Source: Klebsiella variicola
GTDB taxonomy: Bacteria; Pseudomonadota; Gammaproteobacteria; Enterobacterales; Enterobacteriaceae
DNA: 64,000 nucleotides
Direction: 5' to 3'
Assembly (NCBI RefSeq): GCF_000828055.2
Contig: NZ_CP010523.2
Span: 4,278,001 to 4,342,000, forward strand
Shown: one piece after another, positions 24,871-37,832 of the stretch
Layout of the letters: every line of letters starts with the position of its first letter
How positions within the stretch are numbered: the first letter of the stretch is position 1
Notes under the pieces: generated by a model
Told to the model about the DNA's origin: nothing
Seen by the model: only the letters and a program-made list of their open reading frames with translations
Database searches by the model: none
Program-made: the position numbers and the translations under genes

Positions 24871-24907
24871 ATAGGTAAAAGCTGGCTGAACGATTGTCAG
24901 CGCCTCT
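24871..24907 (+). promoter_or_regulatory. OxyR-like binding site upstream of the peroxiredoxin gene
   Basis: Two 15-bp units (24871-24885 and 24893-24907), 7 bp apart, follow the OxyR pattern ATAG-N-T-NNN-A-N-CTAT: by eye the first matches 8 of 10 defined positions and the second 6 of 10. The site ends directly at the -35 hexamer, the usual place for an OxyR activator. Confidence 0.6.
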
Positions 24908-24936
24908 TTGTGTTATTAGCGGCCAGGCTCTATACT
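24908..24936 (+). promoter_or_regulatory. Promoter of the peroxiredoxin gene
   Basis: TTGTGT (24908-24913) and TATACT (24931-24936) are separated by 17 bp, about 48 bases before the start codon. The weak -35 fits activation. Confidence 0.6.
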
Positions 24937-24983
24937 TGCCCGCGTTGCGTTCCAAATAACCTTAGTAATTACAGGAGAATCAA

Positions 24984-25586
24984 ATGGTTCTGGTCACTCG
25001 TCAAGCGCCGGATTTTACTGCAGCCGCTGTGCTGGGTAATGGTGAGATCGTTGAGAAATTCAATTTCAAACAGCACACCAACGGTAAACCTACCGTTCTG
25101 TTCTTCTGGCCGATGGACTTCACCTTCGTGTGCCCGTCTGAGCTGATCGCGTTCGACAAACGTTACGAAGAATTCCAGAAACGCGGCGTGGAAGTGGTTG
25201 GCGTTTCCTTCGACTCCGAGTTCGTTCACAACGCATGGCGTAACACCCCGGTAGACCAGGGCGGTATAGGCCCGGTTAAATACGCGATGGTTGCTGACAT
25301 CAAACGTGAAATCCAGAAAGCTTACGGTATCGAGCATCCGGACGAAGGCGTAGCGCTGCGCGGCTCTTTCCTGATCGACGCTAACGGCGTGGTACGCCAC
25401 CAGGTGGTTAACGACCTGCCGCTGGGCCGTAACATCGACGAAATGCTGCGTATGGTTGACGCGCTGCAGTTCCACGAAGAGCACGGCGAAGTCTGCCCGG
25501 CGCAGTGGGAAAAAGGAAAAGAAGGTATGGCTGCTTCTCCGGAAGGCGTAGCAAAATACCTGACCGAAAACGTCTCCAGCCTGTAA
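24984..25586 (+). CDS. Typical 2-Cys peroxiredoxin (AhpC/TsaA type)
   Basis: This 200-residue cytosolic thiol peroxidase reduces hydrogen peroxide and organic hydroperoxides. The peroxidatic cysteine is Cys50 in FTFVCPSE with the Pro/Thr active-site loop, and the resolving cysteine is Cys171 in HGEVCPAQW. GGIG at 93-96 and a C-terminal tail resemble eukaryotic Prx1-type enzymes rather than E. coli AhpC. Codon choice is that of a highly expressed gene. Salmonella tsaA lies next to the same neighbour acpH, so it is probably the orthologue. CAGGAG precedes the ATG, and an OxyR-like site lies upstream. Confidence 0.93.
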   Translation: MVLVTRQAPDFTAAAVLGNGEIVEKFNFKQHTNGKPTVLFFWPMDFTFVCPSELIAFDKRYEEFQKRGVEVVGVSFDSEFVHNAWRNTPVDQGGIGPVKYAMVADIKREIQKAYGIEHPDEGVALRGSFLIDANGVVRHQVVNDLPLGRNIDEMLRMVDALQFHEEHGEVCPAQWEKGKEGMAASPEGVAKYLTENVSSL

Positions 25587-25603
25587 TCGGCAGGCGTTTT
25601 AAT

Positions 25604-25632
25604 AAAAGGCTCGCTCAGGCGGGCCTTTTTTG
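25604..25632 (+). terminator. Peroxiredoxin terminator
   Basis: AAAAGGC-TCGC pairs with GCGG-GCCTTTTT around a short loop, and the descending arm runs into six T residues ending near 25631. Confidence 0.85.
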
Positions 25633-25932
25633 TTAGCGGTGTCAAAATTTAAGAAAATGACCCGCCGATATTTGTGACCAGAGATACACTTCTGCCAAAA
25701 AAATTCGCCCTACCTCTCACTTTTTCTCTGTCAAATTTCAGCATCAAAATACAAAGCCTTCATAACCCACTGAAAAATACATAAATTATTTATATCGTTT
25801 TCTGCCGGTACTTTGCCGTCGATGTGATCCCCATCAATATTTAAAACCCCGGATGTGATCTCATCCATCATTTTCATCAATGTATTTAGTCATGATTTTA
25901 CTCAGGAACAGGAATACGTTCAGGAGCTGAGG
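25633..25932 (+). promoter_or_regulatory. AT-rich control region of the PTS operon
   Basis: This 300-base stretch has no credible gene. It is much richer in A and T than its surroundings and holds two 9-bp direct copies of GATGTGATC (25821-25829 and 25852-25860), 31 bp apart. Each contains the CRP half site TGTGA, and the first has a partial right half (TCAAT, 25834-25838). Catabolite control through CRP is therefore likely; the promoter itself cannot be placed with confidence. Confidence 0.45.
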
Positions 25933-26376
25933 ATGGAAATTATTTTTGACCCGTCGTTAATCGCCCTTAAGCAGAATATTTCCCGTGCGGAAGAGGCCAT
26001 CGAACTGGCGGGTTTATTACTCGCCAGGCGTCAGATTTGCAGCGCCGAATATGTCAACGAGATGCTGACGGTATATGAAGATTTCGGCGCCGCTATCGTC
26101 ATAGACGACGGGATTGCCATGCCGCACGCCCGGCCGGAAAAAGGGGCATTGCAGACCGGATTTTCGCTTGTCACCACCGCCACCCCAATCTCCTTCGGCC
26201 ACGATGAGTTCGATCCGGTTACCGTGATCATCGCTATCGCCGGCGCGGACGCTGACAGTCATATCAAAATGATCCAACTGATAGCCTCGCTGATCGAGTC
26301 AGATATTGTGACCTTCCTTCAGCAGGAAAATGACGTGAATTCAGTCTTACATTTCATCCAAAAACAAATGGAGTAG
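25933..26376 (+). CDS. PTS sugar transporter subunit IIA (fructose/mannitol/ascorbate type)
   Basis: EIIA passes phosphate from HPr to EIIB. The 147-residue domain (PTS_EIIA_2) has the phosphorylated His65 in GIAMPHARPE. ATG 25933 is chosen because AGGAG lies six bases upstream and the family begins there; the open frame extends 26 codons further. It is followed five bases later by the EIIB gene, and the two end genes of the operon, PfkB kinase and aldolase, point to full catabolism of the imported sugar. The substrate is unknown. Confidence 0.93.
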   Translation: MEIIFDPSLIALKQNISRAEEAIELAGLLLARRQICSAEYVNEMLTVYEDFGAAIVIDDGIAMPHARPEKGALQTGFSLVTTATPISFGHDEFDPVTVIIAIAGADADSHIKMIQLIASLIESDIVTFLQQENDVNSVLHFIQKQME

Positions 26377-26381
26377 TCATT

Positions 26382-26669
26382 ATGTTAGTTATCAGAACGG
26401 TTTGTGGTAACGGTATTGGCAGTTCATTGATGGCTGCGAATAATGTCAAAAAGATCTGTGAAGAATTAGGTATCAAAGCGGACGTCGCCTCGGTCGATTT
26501 TGCTAACGCCGTCGGCGAAAAAGCCGATCTTTACATCACGATCAAAGAACTGGCAAATCAATTTCCAACCCACTGTCATGTCGCCATCATTCGCAGCTAC
26601 GTCCATAAAGCGAAAATCGCCGAGGATATTACCGACGCGCTGACCAAAATTGCGGCGAATCACTCTTAA
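26382..26669 (+). CDS. PTS sugar transporter subunit IIB (ascorbate/SgaB type)
   Basis: This 95-residue lactate/ascorbate-type EIIB carries the phosphocysteine at position 8 in RTVCGNGIGSSLM, the P-loop-like motif of the UlaB/SgaB group. It takes phosphate from the EIIA encoded immediately upstream and hands it to the sugar held by EIIC encoded 20 bases downstream. The family is defined on L-ascorbate in E. coli, but relatives take other substrates. Confidence 0.93.
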   Translation: MLVIRTVCGNGIGSSLMAANNVKKICEELGIKADVASVDFANAVGEKADLYITIKELANQFPTHCHVAIIRSYVHKAKIAEDITDALTKIAANHS

Positions 26670-26689
26670 TTAACATAGAGGGAACGACC

Positions 26690-28081
26690 ATGCAGGCTAT
26701 TCTTAGTTTCTTAGCGGAAATATTCAGTCAACCTGCTTTTTTAATGGGGCTGATTGCTTTTGTCGGTTTAGTGGCGCTGCGCTCCCCCGGTAACAAACTC
26801 CTTACCGGCACATTAAAACCGATTCTAGGCTATTTAATGTTGAGCGCTGGCGCAGGCGTTATCGTTGCCAATCTCAACCCGCTGGGCGGTATTATCGAGG
26901 CCGGGTTTAATATCCGCGGCGTTATTCCAAACAATGAAGCCATTGTCTCCGTCGCCCAGAAGATGCTGGGCGTGGAAACCATGAGTATTTTGCTGTTAGG
27001 CTTTATTTTCAACCTGATTATCGCCCGCTGTACCAAGTATAAATATATCTTTCTGACCGGCCATCACTCGTTCTTCCTCGCCTGCCTGTTTTCCGCTGTC
27101 CTGCAGGCGGCGGAGTTCCATGGCTGGATGTTGATCCTGATCGGCGGATTCCTGCTGGGGTCATGGTCGGCCATCTCCCCCGCGATTGGTCAGCGTTACA
27201 CCAAGCAGGTCACGGAAGACGGTGGGATCGCCATGGGTCATTTCGGCTCCCTCGGCTACTACCTCTCGGCATGGATCGCCAGCCGGACCGGCAATCCGGC
27301 AAATTCCTTCGCGGATACCGAAATTTCAGAAAAGTGGGGCTTTCTGCGCGATACCACCGTCACCACCGGTATCGTGATGTTTGTTATCTACTTTATCTGC
27401 AGCGCTGTCGCCGGGTCGGCATACCTGAGCACCATCACCGACCAAAACATGCTGATCTTCTCGGTGCTGACCGGCCTGCAGTTCGCCGTTGGCGTGGCCA
27501 TTGTGTACAACGGTGTGCGGCTGATCCTCGGCGATCTGGTGCCGGCATTCCAGGGCATCAGCCAGAAGCTGATCCCGGACTCCATCCCGGCCGTTGACTG
27601 CGCGGTATTCTTCACCTTTAGCCCCACCGCCGTGGTGGTGGGATTCATCAGTTCCTTCGTGGGCGGGCTGGTCGGGATGCTCTTGCTCGGCGGGCTGGGC
27701 ATGGCGCTGATTATTCCCGGCATGGTGCCGCACTTCTTCTGCGGCGGCACGTCCGGCGTCTTCGCCGACAAGCTGGGCGGCAAGCGCGGATGTATCATCG
27801 CCTCCTTTATCGGGGGGATCTTCCTCGCCTTCCTGCCGGCGATGCTGCTGCCGGCGCTCGGCAACCTCGGGTTTGAAAACAGCACCTTCGCCGATTTCGA
27901 CTTCGCGGTATGGGGCATCATTATCGGTAACGCCTTCACCCAGTTTGGCCAGGTCACTATCTACCTGATTTGTCTGGTGCTGCTCGTCGCGCTGCTGGCG
28001 CCTTTCTGTTTCCGTCACGTACGGGTGGTTGGCGATACGCTCAGCTATGAGGAGCTCACGGCGAAGCAGAAAAATGAATAA
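26690..28081 (+). CDS. PTS sugar transporter subunit IIC (UlaA/SgaT type)
   Basis: This 463-residue integral membrane protein is the sugar-translocating EIIC of the ascorbate-galactitol superfamily. About eleven hydrophobic segments are seen, with PILGYLMLSAGAGVIVANL near the start and GMVPHFFCGGTSGVFADKLGG in the second half, characteristic of SgaT/UlaA. GAGGGAACG is upstream of the ATG. A hairpin separates it from the kinase gene. It is clearly related to UlaA but the operon lacks all other ula genes, so ascorbate itself is doubtful. Confidence 0.92.
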   Translation: MQAILSFLAEIFSQPAFLMGLIAFVGLVALRSPGNKLLTGTLKPILGYLMLSAGAGVIVANLNPLGGIIEAGFNIRGVIPNNEAIVSVAQKMLGVETMSILLLGFIFNLIIARCTKYKYIFLTGHHSFFLACLFSAVLQAAEFHGWMLILIGGFLLGSWSAISPAIGQRYTKQVTEDGGIAMGHFGSLGYYLSAWIASRTGNPANSFADTEISEKWGFLRDTTVTTGIVMFVIYFICSAVAGSAYLSTITDQNMLIFSVLTGLQFAVGVAIVYNGVRLILGDLVPAFQGISQKLIPDSIPAVDCAVFFTFSPTAVVVGFISSFVGGLVGMLLLGGLGMALIIPGMVPHFFCGGTSGVFADKLGGKRGCIIASFIGGIFLAFLPAMLLPALGNLGFENSTFADFDFAVWGIIIGNAFTQFGQVTIYLICLVLLVALLAPFCFRHVRVVGDTLSYEELTAKQKNE

Positions 28082-28097
28082 GCGACGTCATTTTTCC

Positions 28098-28123
28098 CGG
28101 CGGGGAGGTCAGGCTTCCCGCCG
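28098..28123 (+). other. Intercistronic hairpin between EIIC and kinase genes
   Basis: CGGCGGG (28098-28104) pairs with CCCGCCG (28117-28123), extendable by two pairs. There is no T run; it may stabilise the PTS part of the mRNA or reduce downstream expression. Confidence 0.45.
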
Positions 28124-28146
28124 CTGACCAATAATCAGGAGTGGTT

Positions 28147-29109
28147 ATGGCTATTTTGTCCATTGGATTTGCTTGTTTCGATCAGTTTTTCTTTCTCAAT
28201 GAATGGCCTCAGGAGAATACCAAAAACTTTTGTCATGATTTTATAGAAAGCGGCGGCGGCCCAGCGGCCAATGCGGCATGGCTGCTGGGATTATGGGGTG
28301 AGGAAGTCTATTACATTGGTCATCTGCATCAGGACCTTTACGGTCAGCGCATTATCGATGAGTTTGCCGAAGCGGGCGTGGATACCAGCCAGGTGGTTTT
28401 TTCCGATGACATGATCACTCCGCTGGCCTCGGTGCTGGTCAATCGCTTAACGGGTTCGCGGACGATTATTACCCGCAAGATGCAAACGCCACCTTCCCTG
28501 ACCTACGATCAAAAGCTCAAACTGGACGACCTCGCCGAGCGGCTGATTGCCAGCGAGGAGCCGGTCACCATTTTAATTGACGGCCATGAGGCAGAAATCA
28601 GTGAATATTTAATCAAGAAACTGCCCCACGCCAAAGTCGTGATGGACGGGGGTTCACTGCGTGCCAGCAATATTAAACTGGCGGCCTGGACTGACTATTT
28701 TGTCGTAAGCGAACATTTTGCCCGCGATTATATGAGCTATCGTTCACTGAGCACCGAAGCAGACATTAAAGCGGCCCTGATTGAACTGAATAAAATTTGC
28801 CGCGGCGAGGCGTTTATCACCCTTGGCGAAAAAGGCTGCGCCTTCTTAAAGAGCGGTATGCTGCAGATCGTCCCGTCCTGGCTGTGCAATGCCGTTGATA
28901 CCACCGGCGCCGGGGATGTTTTTCACGGTGCCTTTACCTATGGCGTTCATTATTCGTGGCATATAGATAATATTATTTTATTTGCCAGCCTGACCGCCGC
29001 TATTTCTATTGAGAAAAAAGGGGTACGGGAATCGATGCCGGATCTGGCGCTCGTCCACCACTCGCTAAATAGCTACGAGAGAAATTTAAAGCAATATTTT
29101 GAAGAATAA
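28147..29109 (+). CDS. PfkB-family sugar (phosphate) kinase
   Basis: This 320-residue ribokinase-like enzyme phosphorylates a sugar or sugar phosphate with ATP. The N-terminal GGGPAANAA (36-44) binds substrate, and the C-terminal DTTGAGD (251-257) holds the anion hole and catalytic Asp257. ATG 28147 has AGGAG five bases upstream; the GTG two codons earlier overlaps that ribosome site. Placed after a PTS and before a class II aldolase, it most simply makes a ketohexose bisphosphate from the imported sugar phosphate. That substrate is inferred, not shown. Confidence 0.9.
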   Translation: MAILSIGFACFDQFFFLNEWPQENTKNFCHDFIESGGGPAANAAWLLGLWGEEVYYIGHLHQDLYGQRIIDEFAEAGVDTSQVVFSDDMITPLASVLVNRLTGSRTIITRKMQTPPSLTYDQKLKLDDLAERLIASEEPVTILIDGHEAEISEYLIKKLPHAKVVMDGGSLRASNIKLAAWTDYFVVSEHFARDYMSYRSLSTEADIKAALIELNKICRGEAFITLGEKGCAFLKSGMLQIVPSWLCNAVDTTGAGDVFHGAFTYGVHYSWHIDNIILFASLTAAISIEKKGVRESMPDLALVHHSLNSYERNLKQYFEE

Positions 29110-29138
29110 CTGCGTTTAATAAATATCAAGAGGTGAAT

Positions 29139-29999
29139 ATGTTAGTGTCGATGAAGGACATGCTTCAGCATGCCCTAAAGAACGGTTACGCCGTCGGTCA
29201 GTTCAACATTAATAATCTGGAATGGGTCGGCGCCGTATTAAGCACCGCCCAGCAGTGCCGCTCACCGGTTATTCTGGGCGTGTCCGGCGGCACGGTTAAG
29301 CATATGCTCGGGCTAAAATGTATTCATGATATTGTGGTTAATGCCATAGATTATTTACATATTGATATTCCGGTGGCTCTGCATCTGGATCACGGCACTA
29401 CCCAGGAGGCCTGCGAAGCCGCGATCGCTGCCGGCTTCAGTTCCATTATGTTTGATGGTTCACATCTGCCGTTCAGGGAAAACCTGACCATCACCCGCCA
29501 CCTGGTGGCGCTGGCGCACAGCAAGGGCATCTCCGTGGAAGCCGAACTGGGGACCATCGCCGGCAGTGAAGATGGTATCGTTAACTCCGAGGTCATTTAC
29601 GCCGATCCTGAAGAGTGCTACACCCTGGTGACAGAAACGCATGTGGATTGCCTCGCCGCCGCGCTGGGTTCCACCCATGGTCTGTATAAAGGTAAAGCCC
29701 GGCTGGGATTTACTGAGATGGAAGCCATTGCCGAGCGCGTGAAGGTCCCGCTGGTGCTGCATGGCGGCACCGGTATTGCCGATGAGGATATGCGCCGGGC
29801 GATTGCCTGCGGCACCGCCAAGATTAACGTCAATACCGAAAACATGTACGCCTGGTGCCAGCAGGTGAAAGCGATCTTTGCCGCCGATACCGGGCACGAT
29901 GTGAACGATCCGCGGAAAGTCATCACCCAGGGACTGCAGCCGGTACGTGAGATGATTGCCCGCCGCATGGCGCTTTTTGGCTCACAGCAGCGCTATTGA
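29139..29999 (+). CDS. Class II ketose-bisphosphate aldolase (GatY/KbaY/FbaA-like)
   Basis: This 286-residue zinc aldolase cleaves a ketose bisphosphate into dihydroxyacetone phosphate and an aldehyde. The catalytic Asp84 and zinc His85 are in ALHLDHGTT, and further zinc ligands are His180 (GSTHGLY) and His208 (LVLHGGTG). Its length and these motifs match tagatose-bisphosphate aldolases GatY and KbaY, also 284-286 residues. AAGAGG lies five bases before ATG 29139. It is the last gene of the PTS operon and ends at a strong hairpin. Confidence 0.92.
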   Translation: MLVSMKDMLQHALKNGYAVGQFNINNLEWVGAVLSTAQQCRSPVILGVSGGTVKHMLGLKCIHDIVVNAIDYLHIDIPVALHLDHGTTQEACEAAIAAGFSSIMFDGSHLPFRENLTITRHLVALAHSKGISVEAELGTIAGSEDGIVNSEVIYADPEECYTLVTETHVDCLAAALGSTHGLYKGKARLGFTEMEAIAERVKVPLVLHGGTGIADEDMRRAIACGTAKINVNTENMYAWCQQVKAIFAADTGHDVNDPRKVITQGLQPVREMIARRMALFGSQQRY

Positions 30000-30019
30000 C
30001 GCCGGGCCTGCGGCTGAAA

Positions 30020-30048
30020 CCTCCGCCCCGAAGCTGCCGGGGCGGAGG
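30020..30048. terminator. Hairpin between the aldolase and amidohydrolase genes
   Basis: A perfect 11-bp stem (30020-30030 with 30038-30048) has a 7-nt loop between convergent genes. No T run is present, so intrinsic termination is only probable. Confidence 0.55.
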
Positions 30049-30058
30049 CGTCAAGGTA

Positions 30059-33576: not shown

Positions 33577-34494
33577 ATGGATAGCTCCCCCATGCGTGTG
33601 AATTTTGATGTACTCATGATCCTTGATGCCCTGGACAGACACGGGTCCTTCGCCACCGCCGCGGAGTCGCTGTATAAAACCCCCGCCGCCCTGAGCTATA
33701 TGATCCAGAAGCTGGAGAGCGATCTGGATATTGTGCTGTTGGATCGCTCTGGCCACCGGGCGAAGTTTACCGATACCGGTAGGCTGATGCTGGAGAAGGG
33801 ACGGCAGCTGTTGAGCGCCGCCAGAGATCTGGAAAAGCAGGCGCAGCAGCTGAGCGCGGGCTGGGAGCGAGAGCTGGCGATCGCTCTCGATGCTTCGTTT
33901 CCCTTTTCTGCCCTGCTACCGCTGATCGCCGAATTTTATGCGCAAAACCCGCAGACGCGGCTGAACTTCAGTCATCACACCCTCGCCGGTTCGTGGGAAG
34001 AGCTGACCCACCATGGCGCGGATATTATCCTCGGCGCCATCAATGAACCCCCGACCTCTGCAGAGTGGTCATGGCAAACCCTCGGCGCACTGGATAATAT
34101 TTTCGTGGTTGCCCCCGCCCACCCGCTGGCTCAGGCGAAGGAGCCACTGACCAATAAACAGCTCAGCCAACATCGGGCCATCGTGATCCGCGACAGCGCC
34201 CGTTATTGCCATCCGCTAAACAGCAATCTCCTCGACGAGCAGCCGCAAATCGGCGTCGATGATTTCGCCAGTAAAGTCGAACTGCTGTGCGCCGGGTTGG
34301 GCTGCGGCTTTCTGCCGCGCCATATCGCTCGCCCATGGCTGGAAAAAGGCAGTCTGGTGGAGAAAAGCGTCGCCTGCTGGCGGGAAAAAGATATCACCTA
34401 CATGGCCTGGCGCAGCGGGAATGACGGGCTGGCTCAGCGCTGGTGGCGGGAGGCGCTCCTCCGCGGCGACCTGCTGAGCCAGCTCTACCGTTAA
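33577..34494 (+). CDS. LysR-family transcriptional regulator (YhaJ-like)
   Basis: This 305-residue regulator has a LysR winged helix at residues about 6-65 ([34 protein letters not shown]) and a periplasmic-binding-like effector domain. Its features [16 protein letters not shown] and SALSY-like recognition helix are of the YhaJ/DsdC-like branch. ATG 33577 has AAGGGA about ten bases upstream; an earlier in-frame ATG lacks one. It is divergent from the YcaC-like cluster, which it probably regulates. Its TAA shares four bases with the malZ stop on the other strand. Confidence 0.9.
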
Positions 34495-36308
34495 CGGCCG
34501 GACCAGACGCTGGCGGAGATGGCCGGGAGGGTCAGCACCCCGTCCTGAAAGGCGCCGGCGCCTTCCAGCAGCGTCCACCCGGCCACGTTCAGCAGCGGCG
34601 AATCCTCGATAACCACCTCGCAGGCTTCCCCGCGGTTAATCGCCACCAGCACGCGCTGCTGTTTGTAGACCCGGACAAACACCACCACGTTATCCTCGGC
34701 GTAAATCACCTGACAGCCGCCGTAGCGCAGCGCCTGCTGGGCCTTACGCAGTTTCGCCATCCGCTGATACAGCGCCAGCAACTGGGTATCCTGCAGCGCC
34801 GGATCCCACGGGAACGGTTTGCGGCAGAACGGATCGTTGTTGCCATCCACGCCCACCTCGTCGCCGTAGTAGATGCACGGTACGCCCGGCCAGCTAAACA
34901 GCCACACCACCGCCAGCGGCAGGCGCGCTACGTCTTTACCAAGGAGAGATTTAAAGCGCGCCGTATCATGGCTGTCGAGCTGGTTGAACATCCTCAGCTG
35001 CTGCTGATGCGACAGCCCGGCGCGATAATTATCCATCCACGCCATGCAGGTCTGGGCGTCTATCTTCTGCGGATCGTAAGAGATATCGGTATTGGCGAGG
35101 AATCCCCAGATCGGGAAGGTAAAGCCGCGATAGTTCATCGCCGCATCTTCGGCATCCGCCTGCAGCCATTGTCGCGCATCGCCAAAATGTTCGCCAAAGA
35201 CAAAGGCTTCCGGCTGCGTTTGTTTTGCCGCCTGAGTGATGCCGGCGATATGCTGCAGGTTATTCCGCGCCCCGCCGCCTTCGCCCAGCATATGCACCAC
35301 GTCCAGACGCCAGCCGTCCATGCTCCACGGCGCTTTCAGCCAGTGGCGTACGATACTGTCCTCGCCGGCATAGATCTCGTTGACCAGGCTGGTCGAGCGA
35401 TAGTCGAGCTTCGGCAGACTGGCATAGCCCAGCCAGTTGTGCGCCTGCCCCTCCTCTGAGAAGGTAAACCAGTCGCGCCACGGAGAATCCGGGTAATGGC
35501 CGGCGCCGCCGCTGCCCTGCTGGTGTCGGTCGAACCAGGGATGGGAATCGCCGGTATGGTTGAACACCCCGTCGAGGATCATACGCATCCCCGCCCGCTG
35601 CGTATTATGGCGCAGCCGGAGCAGCGCCGCGTCGCCGCCAAACTGCGGATCGACGCGCCGATAATCCTCGGTATCGTATTTATGCACGCTGGGGGCGGCG
35701 AAAACCGGGTTCAGATAGAGGGCGGTGACGCCGAGTTGCTTCAGGTAGGGAAGTTTTTCGCTGATGCCGTCGAGATCGCCGCCGTAGAACGTCGACCCGC
35801 CCGCCTCACCGGTTAGCGGTTCGTCCCATGCCTTGCGCACAATCTCCCGTCCCGCCGCGTGATGGTAATAGACCGCATCCTGGTCGGCGTCACGCGCGGC
35901 GCTGCGGGCAAAGCGATCGGGGAAAATCTGATAGAACACCTGATCGGCCACCCACTGCGGGCCGGCGTCCGGCAGGTCAATGGCAAACTGTTCCAGCCTG
36001 GCCGGCGGGAAACGGGTGAAACCTTGTGGCGTAAACCAGCGCTGATGGTCGGCCCACAGCAGCTTAAAGCTGTAGCGGCGGCGCGGCTGGCCGCTGGCGA
36101 GAGAGATTTCACCGCGCCATGCCACCACGCCTGGCTGCGGCGCCTGACGGAGCCGCTGCATCGGCAGCGACAGCTCTTCGTTATCCTCTTCCGCGCGCAG
36201 CGTGATCCGCTGCGGCAGCGACTCACCGCTTAACCACAGGGTAATAAACAGTCGGTCCTGTTGCACCTTGATAAAGGGTGCAACCGGAAGGTGCCATGCC
36301 TTCAACAT
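34491..36308 (-). CDS. malZ: Maltodextrin glucosidase
   Basis: MalZ removes glucose from the reducing end of maltodextrins in the cytosol. The 605-residue GH13 enzyme has a beta-rich N-terminal domain, then catalytic regions [19 protein letters not shown] with the nucleophile Asp, FGEHFGDA with the acid Glu, and [14 protein letters not shown] precedes ATG 36308. MalT-box-like repeats upstream fit maltose regulation known for E. coli. Its stop overlaps the LysR stop tail to tail. Confidence 0.96.
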
Positions 36309-36458: not shown

Positions 36459-37832
36459 TTACTGTGCCTGCGCCAGGCGGCGATCGCGACGGGTCTTAAA
36501 GACCCAGCCCAGCAGCAGCAGGCCGATCCACGCCATACCGACATACAGCGAGATACGGGTATCCGGATGATAGCCGATCAGGGCGATAATAAAGGCCAGG
36601 AACACCAGGCCGACTACCGTGGTCACCACTCCGCCGGGCACTTTGAATTTCAGCGCCTTGACCTCTTCGGGCGACAGACGGCGGCGGAAGGCAATCTGTG
36701 ACAACAGGATCATAATCCACACCCACACCGTGGCGAAGGTGGCCAGGGAGGCGATCACCAGGAAGACGTTTTCCGGCATGATGTAATTGAGATACACCGC
36801 AAACAACAGCGCAATAGTCATCACTATCACCGTCACCCACGGAATACCGCGGCGCGACGTTTTAGCGAACACCTTCGGCGCGCTGCCCTGCTCAGCCATA
36901 CCGTGCAGCATACGGCCCACGCCGAACACGTCGGAGTTAATCGCCGACAGGGAGGCTGTCAGGACCACGAAGTTAAGAATACTGGCCGCGAAGGTAATGC
37001 CCAGATGCTGGAAGGTCAGGACAAAGGGGCTGCCGTCGGTTCCCACCTGATTCCACGGATAGATGGACATAATGACGAACAGTGTGCCGACGTAGAACAC
37101 CAGAATACGCATCGGCACCGAGTTGATCGCGCGCGGAATGGATTTCTCCGGGTCTTTCGCCTCACCGGCGGTAATACCGATGATTTCGATGCCGCCGTAG
37201 GCGAACATCACCATCTGCAGCGACATCACCATCCCCAGCCAGCCGTTGCTGAAGAAGCCGCCGTTGCTCCACAGGTTATGAATGCCGGTCGGCTGGCCGC
37301 CGTTGCCGATCCCCCAGATAATAATGCCGAACCCGGCGAGGATCATGATGATAATGGTGGCCACTTTGAAGAACGAGAACCAGAACTCCAGCTCACCAAA
37401 CACCTTGACGCTCATCAGGTTGACGGCGCAGATGATCAGTACCACGCTGAGCACCCAGATCCAGTGCGGCACCGTCGGGAACCAGACGCCCATGTAGATA
37501 CCGAAGGCGGTGACGTCGGCGATGGCGACGATCAGGATTTCGAAGCAGTAGGTCCAGCCGGTGATATAGCCCGCCAGTCCGCCGAGGTTTTCCTGGGCAT
37601 AGCGGGAAAATGAGCTGGCGGCAGGGTTATGCACCGACATCTCACCGAGCGCCCGCATAATGATATATGCCGCGACGCCACCGATAATGTAGGCCAACAG
37701 CACGCTGGGTCCGGCCATCTTAATGGCGTCGGCTGAGCCGTAAAAAAGCCCGGTGCCGATGGCGGAACCCAGGGCCATAAAGCGGATATGCCGGGTGCTT
37801 AGCCCGCGCTTAAGCTTGTTACTACTTTCCAT
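36459..37832 (-). CDS. proY: Amino-acid permease ProY
   Basis: ProY is an APC-superfamily amino-acid permease, 457 residues with about twelve membrane helices and the consensus start [27 protein letters not shown]. In Salmonella it behaves as a cryptic proline transporter, and histidine transport has been suggested in other bacteria. No good Shine-Dalgarno is visible before ATG 37832. It lies 86 bases after brnQ, beyond a strong terminator, so its expression needs read-through or a separate promoter. Confidence 0.95.

Follow-up and report, generated by a model that had tools for sequence, protein, structure and literature searches.

We analysed a stretch of 64,000 nucleotides from Klebsiella variicola (contig NZ_CP010523.2, positions 4,278,001 to 4,342,000; hereafter the window), taken from a genome that is a single contig of 5.52 Mb. 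Between positions 25933 and 29999 of the window lie five intact co-directional genes for a phosphotransferase system (PTS), a PfkB-family kinase and a class II aldolase, which apparently form a compact, patchily distributed and complete three-step ketose route in Klebsiella:

25933..26376, + strand: EIIA (PTS_EIIA_2 family), 147 amino acids, from its frame and Pfam match
26382..26669, + strand: EIIB (PTS_IIB), 95 amino acids, from its frame and Pfam match
26690..28081, + strand: EIIC of the GAT superfamily (Ula-related, not UlaA), 463 amino acids, from its frame, NCBIfam and Pfam models and a pocket alignment
28147..29109, + strand: PfkB-family kinase, 320 amino acids from ATG, in a clade of its own near the sulfofructose kinase YihV, from its frame, Pfam and a tree
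29139..29999, + strand: class II aldolase, predicted fructose-bisphosphate type, 286 amino acids, from its frame, NCBIfam, Pfam and residues

The operon is flanked by a peroxiredoxin gene on one side and an amidohydrolase gene on the other. Its intergenic gaps measure 5, 20, 65 and 29 nt, and the frames contain no internal stops; GTG codons further upstream would extend the kinase to 322 and the aldolase to 288 amino acids. The Pfam families PTS_EIIA_2, PTS_IIB, EIIC-GAT, PfkB and F_bP_aldolase each score above the gathering threshold in the corresponding protein, and the motifs that we take to be those of the active sites are present: AMPHARP in EIIA, CGNGIG starting at residue 8 of EIIB, TTGAGD at 252-257 of the kinase, and D84/H85, H180 and H208 in the aldolase. 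Coordinates, frames, domains and motifs thus bear out the original prediction, made from the window alone, of five tightly spaced genes with intact active-site residues.

Judged by model scores and residues, the aldolase is of the fructose-bisphosphate rather than the tagatose-bisphosphate type. It passes TIGR01859 (fructose-bisphosphate) narrowly, with 356.6 bits versus a cut-off of 343.05, and fails TIGR01858 (tagatose-bisphosphate), with 251.7 versus 443.55 bits; it also passes the subfamily model TIGR00167, leaving TIGR01859 as the only equivalog model passed. GatY from the same genome shows the opposite pattern (319.4 bits on TIGR01859, a failure, and 502.2 on TIGR01858, a pass), and the earlier description of the operon enzyme as GatY/KbaY-like is imprecise, not holding in the strict sense. 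Its best match in the PDB is 3q94 (307.9 bits). The zinc-site residues D84, H85, H180 and H208 are invariant in 20 aldolase sequences; the operon clade, which makes up 12 of the 28 sequences compared, has S49, G210, T211 and N232 throughout, and the operon aldolase lacks all six residues (H25, T49, P50, A210, S211 and A232) shared by all seven GatY/KbaY-type sequences. Of the 28, 24 keep Arg259, the presumed ligand of the far phosphate, and YdjI, L096, L133 and L134 have lost it. Class II aldolases acting on fructose or tagatose bisphosphates are known for 3S products, and 3S,4R ketoses include fructose and sedoheptulose; the predicted type would favour fructose-like ketoses of this configuration. 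The locus L096 (Photobacterium plasmid pDA100, 1505-8694) is, by reading, a yih-like sulfosugar cluster with a YihV-clade kinase and the class II aldolase devoid of Arg259, possibly a variant of sulfoglycolysis with a class II enzyme.

The kinase matches PF00294 with 118 bits, and its GAGD anion hole, with the catalytic Asp, lies inside TTGAGD. None of the 13 matching NCBIfam models (ribokinase, tagatose kinase, 1-phosphofructokinase, FrlD and IolC among them) reaches its cut-off, the best being ribokinase at 114 versus 299.65 bits. A specific tagatose kinase assignment (NF049991) was tried and rejected: the operon kinase scores 24.6 bits, none of 15 matches in its own genome reaches the cut-off, and the model finds matches in all 14 control genomes. 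The nearest characterised kinase is the sulfofructose kinase YihV, with 27% identity; it has the same fold and is the best structural match, the kinase model otherwise giving no ligand information. In the tree, the operon kinases neighbour the YihV clade yet are separate from it (support 95/98 and 100/99), and they stand apart from FruK, which forms a long branch there. Of the YihV residues that we take to be sulfonate ligands (Lys27, Asn109 and Arg138), Lys27 is kept in the operon clade.

The EIIC matches PF03611 (EIIC-GAT) over residues 10-404 with 425.1 bits, above the gathering score, and passes NF006919, named 'PTS ascorbate transporter subunit IIC', with 514.3 versus a cut-off of 380 bits. 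The true UlaA of the same genome scores less on that model than the operon EIIC (461.9 bits), and for this reason NF006919 seems too broad. In PMC6048161, eleven core-domain residues of UlaA are placed around ascorbate: T86, Y87, H135, I136, Q139, H194, Q195, D314, I358, F362 and M410. The operon EIIC keeps four of these (H135, H194, D314 and F362) and changes seven (T86N, Y87E, I136H, Q139F, Q195F, I358V and M410D, the last at a position made unsure by an indel nearby). The same pattern is found in all 17 operon EIIC sequences aligned, a set that excludes L033, L037, L038, L041, L043, L066-L072 and L093; beyond the eleven, R288 is Lys in 5/17. The UlaA of the same genome keeps 11/11 and adjoins UlaG and UlaR, both passing their models, at another locus than the operon. 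The label 'ascorbate type' given to the EIIC in the original prediction therefore survives as a model name only; 27% identity to UlaA and the altered pocket speak against it, and ascorbate appears very unlikely as the substrate.

Relatives with similar pockets suggest what kind of sugar this branch handles. In L089, whose EIIC has 8/11 pocket residues as in the operon, the neighbour is a D-allulose 6-phosphate 3-epimerase gene, and in L088, with 10/11, the neighbours are two transketolase-like genes; because of these neighbours, the branch seems to serve ketoses. At L089:7452-10165 (genome G406), the EIIABC genes of this branch are followed by an AlsE-type epimerase (373.2 bits versus a cut-off of 271) that shares 53% of its residues with E. 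coli AlsE, making the locus a candidate allulose PTS. Other Klebsiella loci (L085, L086, L088, L091 and L092) have GAT-type EII genes beside split transketolase-like genes, recognised by models in L088 and by reading in the other four, which suggests PTS routes that would pass a ketose phosphate directly to transketolase.

With moderate confidence, we interpret the operon as a self-contained system of ketose catabolism. EIIA, EIIB and EIIC would import a ketose, most likely a ketohexose, phosphorylating its terminal CH2OH group to give the ketose 6-phosphate; the PfkB kinase would put a second phosphate on C1; and the fructose-bisphosphate-type aldolase would split the 1,6-bisphosphate into dihydroxyacetone phosphate and glyceraldehyde 3-phosphate (or a longer aldose phosphate). 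We infer the phosphate positions, the order of steps and the class of sugar, for which a fructose-like 3S,4R configuration would fit the aldolase type best. Double phosphorylation and cleavage of a ketose or hexitol derivative had been proposed before: the ketose part stays plausible, and the hexitol part falls, as it would need a dehydrogenase, which is absent.

The operon block recurs in Klebsiella, Raoultella, Kluyvera and Yersinia and in further Enterobacterales families (f9, f12, f19 and f27). Nine of the ten named loci returned share the order of the five genes, the identities of their kinases ranging from 78 to 98%; the hosts are K. oxytoca, K. pneumoniae, K. spallanzanii, three Raoultella species, Kluyvera sichuanensis and two Yersinia species, the nearest named EIIC being that of K. 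pneumoniae ATCC 13883 (L034; 98% identical). The tenth, from Paenibacillus (L039), was dropped from the set, its kinase being ribokinase-like and PTS genes of this kind being absent. An annotated K. pneumoniae record has the same neighbour order (secD-yajC-tgt-queA-acpH-peroxiredoxin-operon-amidohydrolase-monooxygenase-hydrolase-LysR). Comparison of the genes in the window with six orthologs gave ratios of nonsynonymous to synonymous substitution (dN/dS) of 0.017-0.135, which are rough, many dS values exceeding 1; in a seventh comparison (L036) dS was undefined. Overall, the operon is a patchily distributed unit under purifying selection.

This patchiness is evident among 20 Klebsiella genomes searched. 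Eight have an EIIC of at least 94% identity, and in all eight the operon starts beside the peroxiredoxin gene; in four the operon is absent and the peroxiredoxin and amidohydrolase sides are only 13-201 nt apart (an empty site); and in the remaining eight another gene comes after peroxiredoxin. The empty sites delimit one further feature:

25633..30057, no strand: extent of the insertion, from the empty sites of other Klebsiella genomes

The empty site of G399 joins the peroxiredoxin side (to 25632) to the amidohydrolase side (from 30058) across 39 nt, and in the three further genomes the ends lie no more than 8 nt from those in G399. The Kluyvera operon sits at a different spot of the same region, between genes resembling those at 34491-36308 and 36459-37832 of the window, presumably malZ and proY.

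With the kinase (P0004) as query, 17 of 394 genomes of the order had a match at 1e-30, counting its own genome and YihV-like ones; at 1e-50, among 398 genomes sampled across the phylum, only its own genome matched, and megablast of window positions 24900-30000 found no match in complete E. coli genomes. In plasmid records, EIIC matches occur in 98 and kinase matches in 11, the one close match for each being a 5.4-Mb K. pneumoniae record that is classed as plasmid DNA. The entry L093 (CP125156.1), a K. pneumoniae sequence of 5.37 Mb, is likewise listed among the plasmids, and the EIIC and kinase frames of the operon are split in it, possibly by sequencing errors. A characterised ortholog of the operon was not found in the Creative Commons-licensed papers of PMC, a scope outside which most subscription papers fall; PMC5816610, PMC10989795, PMC13304739 and PMC4012138 had no bearing on the sugar.

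More distant copies vary in content. The six f27 loci (L040-L045), which we take to be Pasteurellaceae-like by gene content, have EIIB, EIIC, kinase and aldolase; EIIA is complete in L042 and L043 and interrupted by an in-frame stop in L045, and no EIIA was found for L040, L041 or L044. All five genes are present in the f12 locus L055, and the f9 locus L047 (G174) has the order regulator-aldolase-EIIA-EIIB-EIIC-kinase. The f19 loci L046, L050, L051 and L059 have PTS genes with one or two kinases and no aldolase: all four f19 genomes with PTS and kinase lack an operon-type aldolase, each having one PF01116 match of 1,023 bases, compatible with a housekeeping fructose-bisphosphate aldolase doing the cleavage.

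In none of the nine named loci does the operon include an isomerase or dehydrogenase, so that the absence of such a gene, already remarked on for the window, is no strain quirk; none joins the operon among the selected neighbours of the other loci either. L042 and L043 have a shikimate-dehydrogenase-like gene next to the operon, and in G270 a phosphoheptose-isomerase-like gene, assigned by reading, lies downstream of it (L045:12671-13249); both are on the opposite strand and neither is an operon member. Upstream of the operon in G270 there is, also by reading, a methylglyoxal-synthase-like gene (L045:6774-7232), and it and the phosphoheptose-isomerase-like gene are probably housekeeping neighbours. 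Four f27 genomes contain lone relatives of the operon kinase (L052:10354-11304, L053:9382-10338, L054:10111-11067 and L058:9742-10698), in which the GAGD anion hole reads TESD or TEND, with the Asp kept, and K26 and R105 are lost; their frames are intact, with mutual dN/dS of about 0.13-0.18. All four lie between the same shikimate-dehydrogenase-like and YcaO-like genes (81-83% and 84% identical, respectively) that flank the operon in L042 and L043, and may represent a conserved pseudokinase remaining after operon loss.

Two short features may bear on expression:

25823..25838, + strand: CRP-like site TGTGATCCCCATCAAT upstream of the operon, a conserved motif with a putative role in catabolite control
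30020..30048, + strand: perfect 10-bp G+C-rich inverted repeat directly 3′ of the last stop codon, read from the sequence

The pattern TGTGA-N6-TCA has a single match in the window versus 1.31 expected by chance, and for that reason only conservation counts for the CRP-like site: TGTGAT-N5-TCA is kept in all ten aligned upstream regions, from Klebsiella to Yersinia, which suggests CRP catabolite control. The inverted repeat is a possible transcript end without a T run, and was not called by a terminator scan. Within the window no regulator gene adjoins the operon, the nearest one seen being a LysR gene that starts at about 33.5 kb, with three other genes between. The operon of G174, in contrast, is headed by an AlsR-type repressor gene (442 bits versus a cut-off of 400) whose product shares 54% of its residues with E. 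coli AlsR; the space that separates this gene from that of the aldolase contains an inverted repeat, AACTTCACAAAA...TTTTGTGAAGTT. The claim that there is no local regulator thus holds for the window and fails for this ortholog. AlsR occurs in 8/20 genomes with the PTS-kinase set and in 11/12 Klebsiella genomes without it, and is absent from the K. variicola genome in a search at 1e-60. As a common regulator it was rejected, adjoining the operon only in G174 and having the distribution just given.

Several points weigh against the route as we draw it, with its predicted kinase, aldolase and transport functions. If, as in the fru and tag systems, the PTS phosphorylated C1 and the kinase C6, the bisphosphate would be the same; and if the product were fructose 1,6-bisphosphate, PfkA and FbaA would suffice and the operon would look redundant. 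At the position of YihV Asn109 the kinase has Thr in 20 of 21 operon-clade sequences; that of Arg138 is His in 19/21 in the multiple alignment, an unsure assignment given that the pairwise alignment sets this His against His; and R105, which YdjH and FrlD also have, is no specific mark of an anionic substrate. No EIIA turned up near the f19 loci L050 and L059, and the f19 genomes are 86-92% complete. Besides the doubtful position at M410, the EIIC of L096 has 11/11 pocket residues as in the operon within an EII set of its own that lacks such a kinase or aldolase; because of this, the pocket does not name the sugar, and its use as a fingerprint was rejected. The clues to the sugar also conflict: the aldolase points to 3S,4R ketoses, and the AlsR and AlsE neighbours, together with the lack of an AlsE in the genome itself, point to allulose.

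The other order of steps, in which the PTS would yield a ketose 1-phosphate and the kinase would act at C6, as do FruA/FruK and TagH/TagK, seems rather unlikely. C1-first phosphorylation is usual for the fructose and tagatose PTS of enterobacteria. The kinase is nearest to YihV, a ketose 1-kinase, and distant from the long-branched FruK; moreover, the operon EIIC shares its superfamily with UlaA, whose product is a 6-phosphate. Klebsiella tagatose transporters and a D-tagatose 1-phosphate (or 6-phosphate) kinase are named in PMC10101011, in favour of the C1-first order.

We consider it unlikely that the substrate is D-allulose (psicose), with allulose 6-phosphate being phosphorylated and cleaved rather than epimerised. 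Such a route would draw on the AlsR-type repressor that heads the G174 operon, on the AlsE-type epimerase after the related EIIC in G406, and on the absence from the K. variicola genome of any AlsE over the cut-off (best 182 versus 271 bits): the usual way from allulose to fructose 6-phosphate thus appears to be missing there, and an allulose route would consequently not be redundant. Against it, allulose is 3R, versus the 3S products of class II aldolases, and AlsR has the distribution described above. Many K. pneumoniae use another psicose locus, KP1_RS12820 to 12850, which includes an allulose-6-phosphate 3-epimerase and was present in 75 of 97 isolates and not in K. quasipneumoniae or K. 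variicola, according to PMC6020474. As an argument against allulose this locus falls for the genome studied here, which has no AlsE over the cut-off.

Also unlikely, if anything slightly more so, is a second route for D-tagatose, with tagatose 6-phosphate and then its 1,6-bisphosphate as intermediates. Tagatose 6-phosphate needs a kinase and an aldolase of its own. Elsewhere in the genome, however, lies a gat/tag locus in which GatD, GatC, GatZ, GatY and a 1-phosphofructokinase-type kinase exceed their cut-offs and which also has a fructose-type EIIBC; the sole match of the genome to PF08013 (GatZ/KbaZ) is at 589-590 kb, not near the operon. The operon aldolase lacks the six GatY/KbaY residues and falls 192 bits under the TIGR01858 cut-off. 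In PMC10101011, a GatY from Bacillus licheniformis is active without a Z subunit, in favour of tagatose.

A bolder version of the preferred ketose route is improbable as it stands: the operon would be the first PTS route for a rare or higher ketose, such as D-sedoheptulose or another 3S,4R ketose, within a wider non-ascorbate GAT-type PTS family feeding ketose phosphates to a kinase and aldolase, to transketolase or to AlsE. With sedoheptulose, the 1,7-bisphosphate would be cleaved to dihydroxyacetone phosphate and erythrose 4-phosphate.

A pathway for a sulfosugar or another C6-anionic sugar, with a sulfofructose-type kinase, we regard as highly improbable. The closest kinase of characterised function is YihV, which acts on a substrate with an anion at C6, but the two clades are separate, no yih-like gene is among the six flanking genes tested, and the operon aldolase keeps Arg259, which that of the Photobacterium yih-like cluster lacks. 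Finally, an ascorbate system, as the automatic EIIC name and its NF006919 score would have it, is scarcely credible given the separate ula genes, the seven changed pocket residues, the absence of UlaD, UlaE, UlaF and UlaG (lactonase, decarboxylase and epimerase types) among the six flanking genes tested, and the Proteus mirabilis PTS annotated as ula, which gives no growth on ascorbate either and has a urinary-tract fitness role together with two other PTS, according to PMC13289894.

The operon is conserved and uncharacterised, a variant of a known pathway type rather than a new type. Databases name its EIIC an ascorbate transporter, a kind of name that experiments in P. mirabilis also make doubtful (PMC13289894); identification of the sugar would assign a function to an accessory trait of 8/20 Klebsiella genomes and would help to set right how this EIIC branch is annotated.

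Elsewhere in the genome (L061:3578-7919, corresponding to G000:C1 at about 5431.6-5435.9 kb), a second operon encodes EIIA, a class II aldolase, a GAT-type EIIC, an EIIB-like protein (by reading) and a PfkA-like kinase that stays under curated phosphofructokinase cut-offs. It resembles the present operon in combining a GAT-type PTS, a phosphofructokinase-like kinase and a class II aldolase, but its kinase is of PfkA rather than PfkB type, and its EIIC is 38% identical and has another pocket.

Comparison with known systems upholds the original view that the operon is neither ula nor gat, both of which are found at other loci of the same genome, the first differing in EIIC pocket and the second in aldolase; these separate loci, with the pocket and aldolase residues, weaken ascorbate, galactitol and tagatose as simple answers. 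With the E. coli L-ascorbate PTS, UlaABC, it has in common the EIIC superfamily and H135, H194, D314 and F362, whereas its EIIC is 27% identical to UlaA, with seven pocket residues changed, and no ula enzyme is encoded by the six flanking genes tested. The Klebsiella gat/tag locus follows the same logic of PTS, kinase and class II aldolase, but with a GatC-type EIIC, a 1-phosphofructokinase-type kinase, GatY accompanied by GatZ, and the GatD dehydrogenase. YihV is matched in the kinase at the K26 and R105 positions, and differs from it at Asn109 (Thr in the operon kinase), in its separate clade and in its yih partners, which are absent from the six flanking genes tested. TIGR01859-type class II aldolases, such as PDB 3q94, are the closest to the operon aldolase by both the best PDB match and the equivalog model, but the operon enzyme forms a clade of its own (100/100) and is encoded in a sugar operon.

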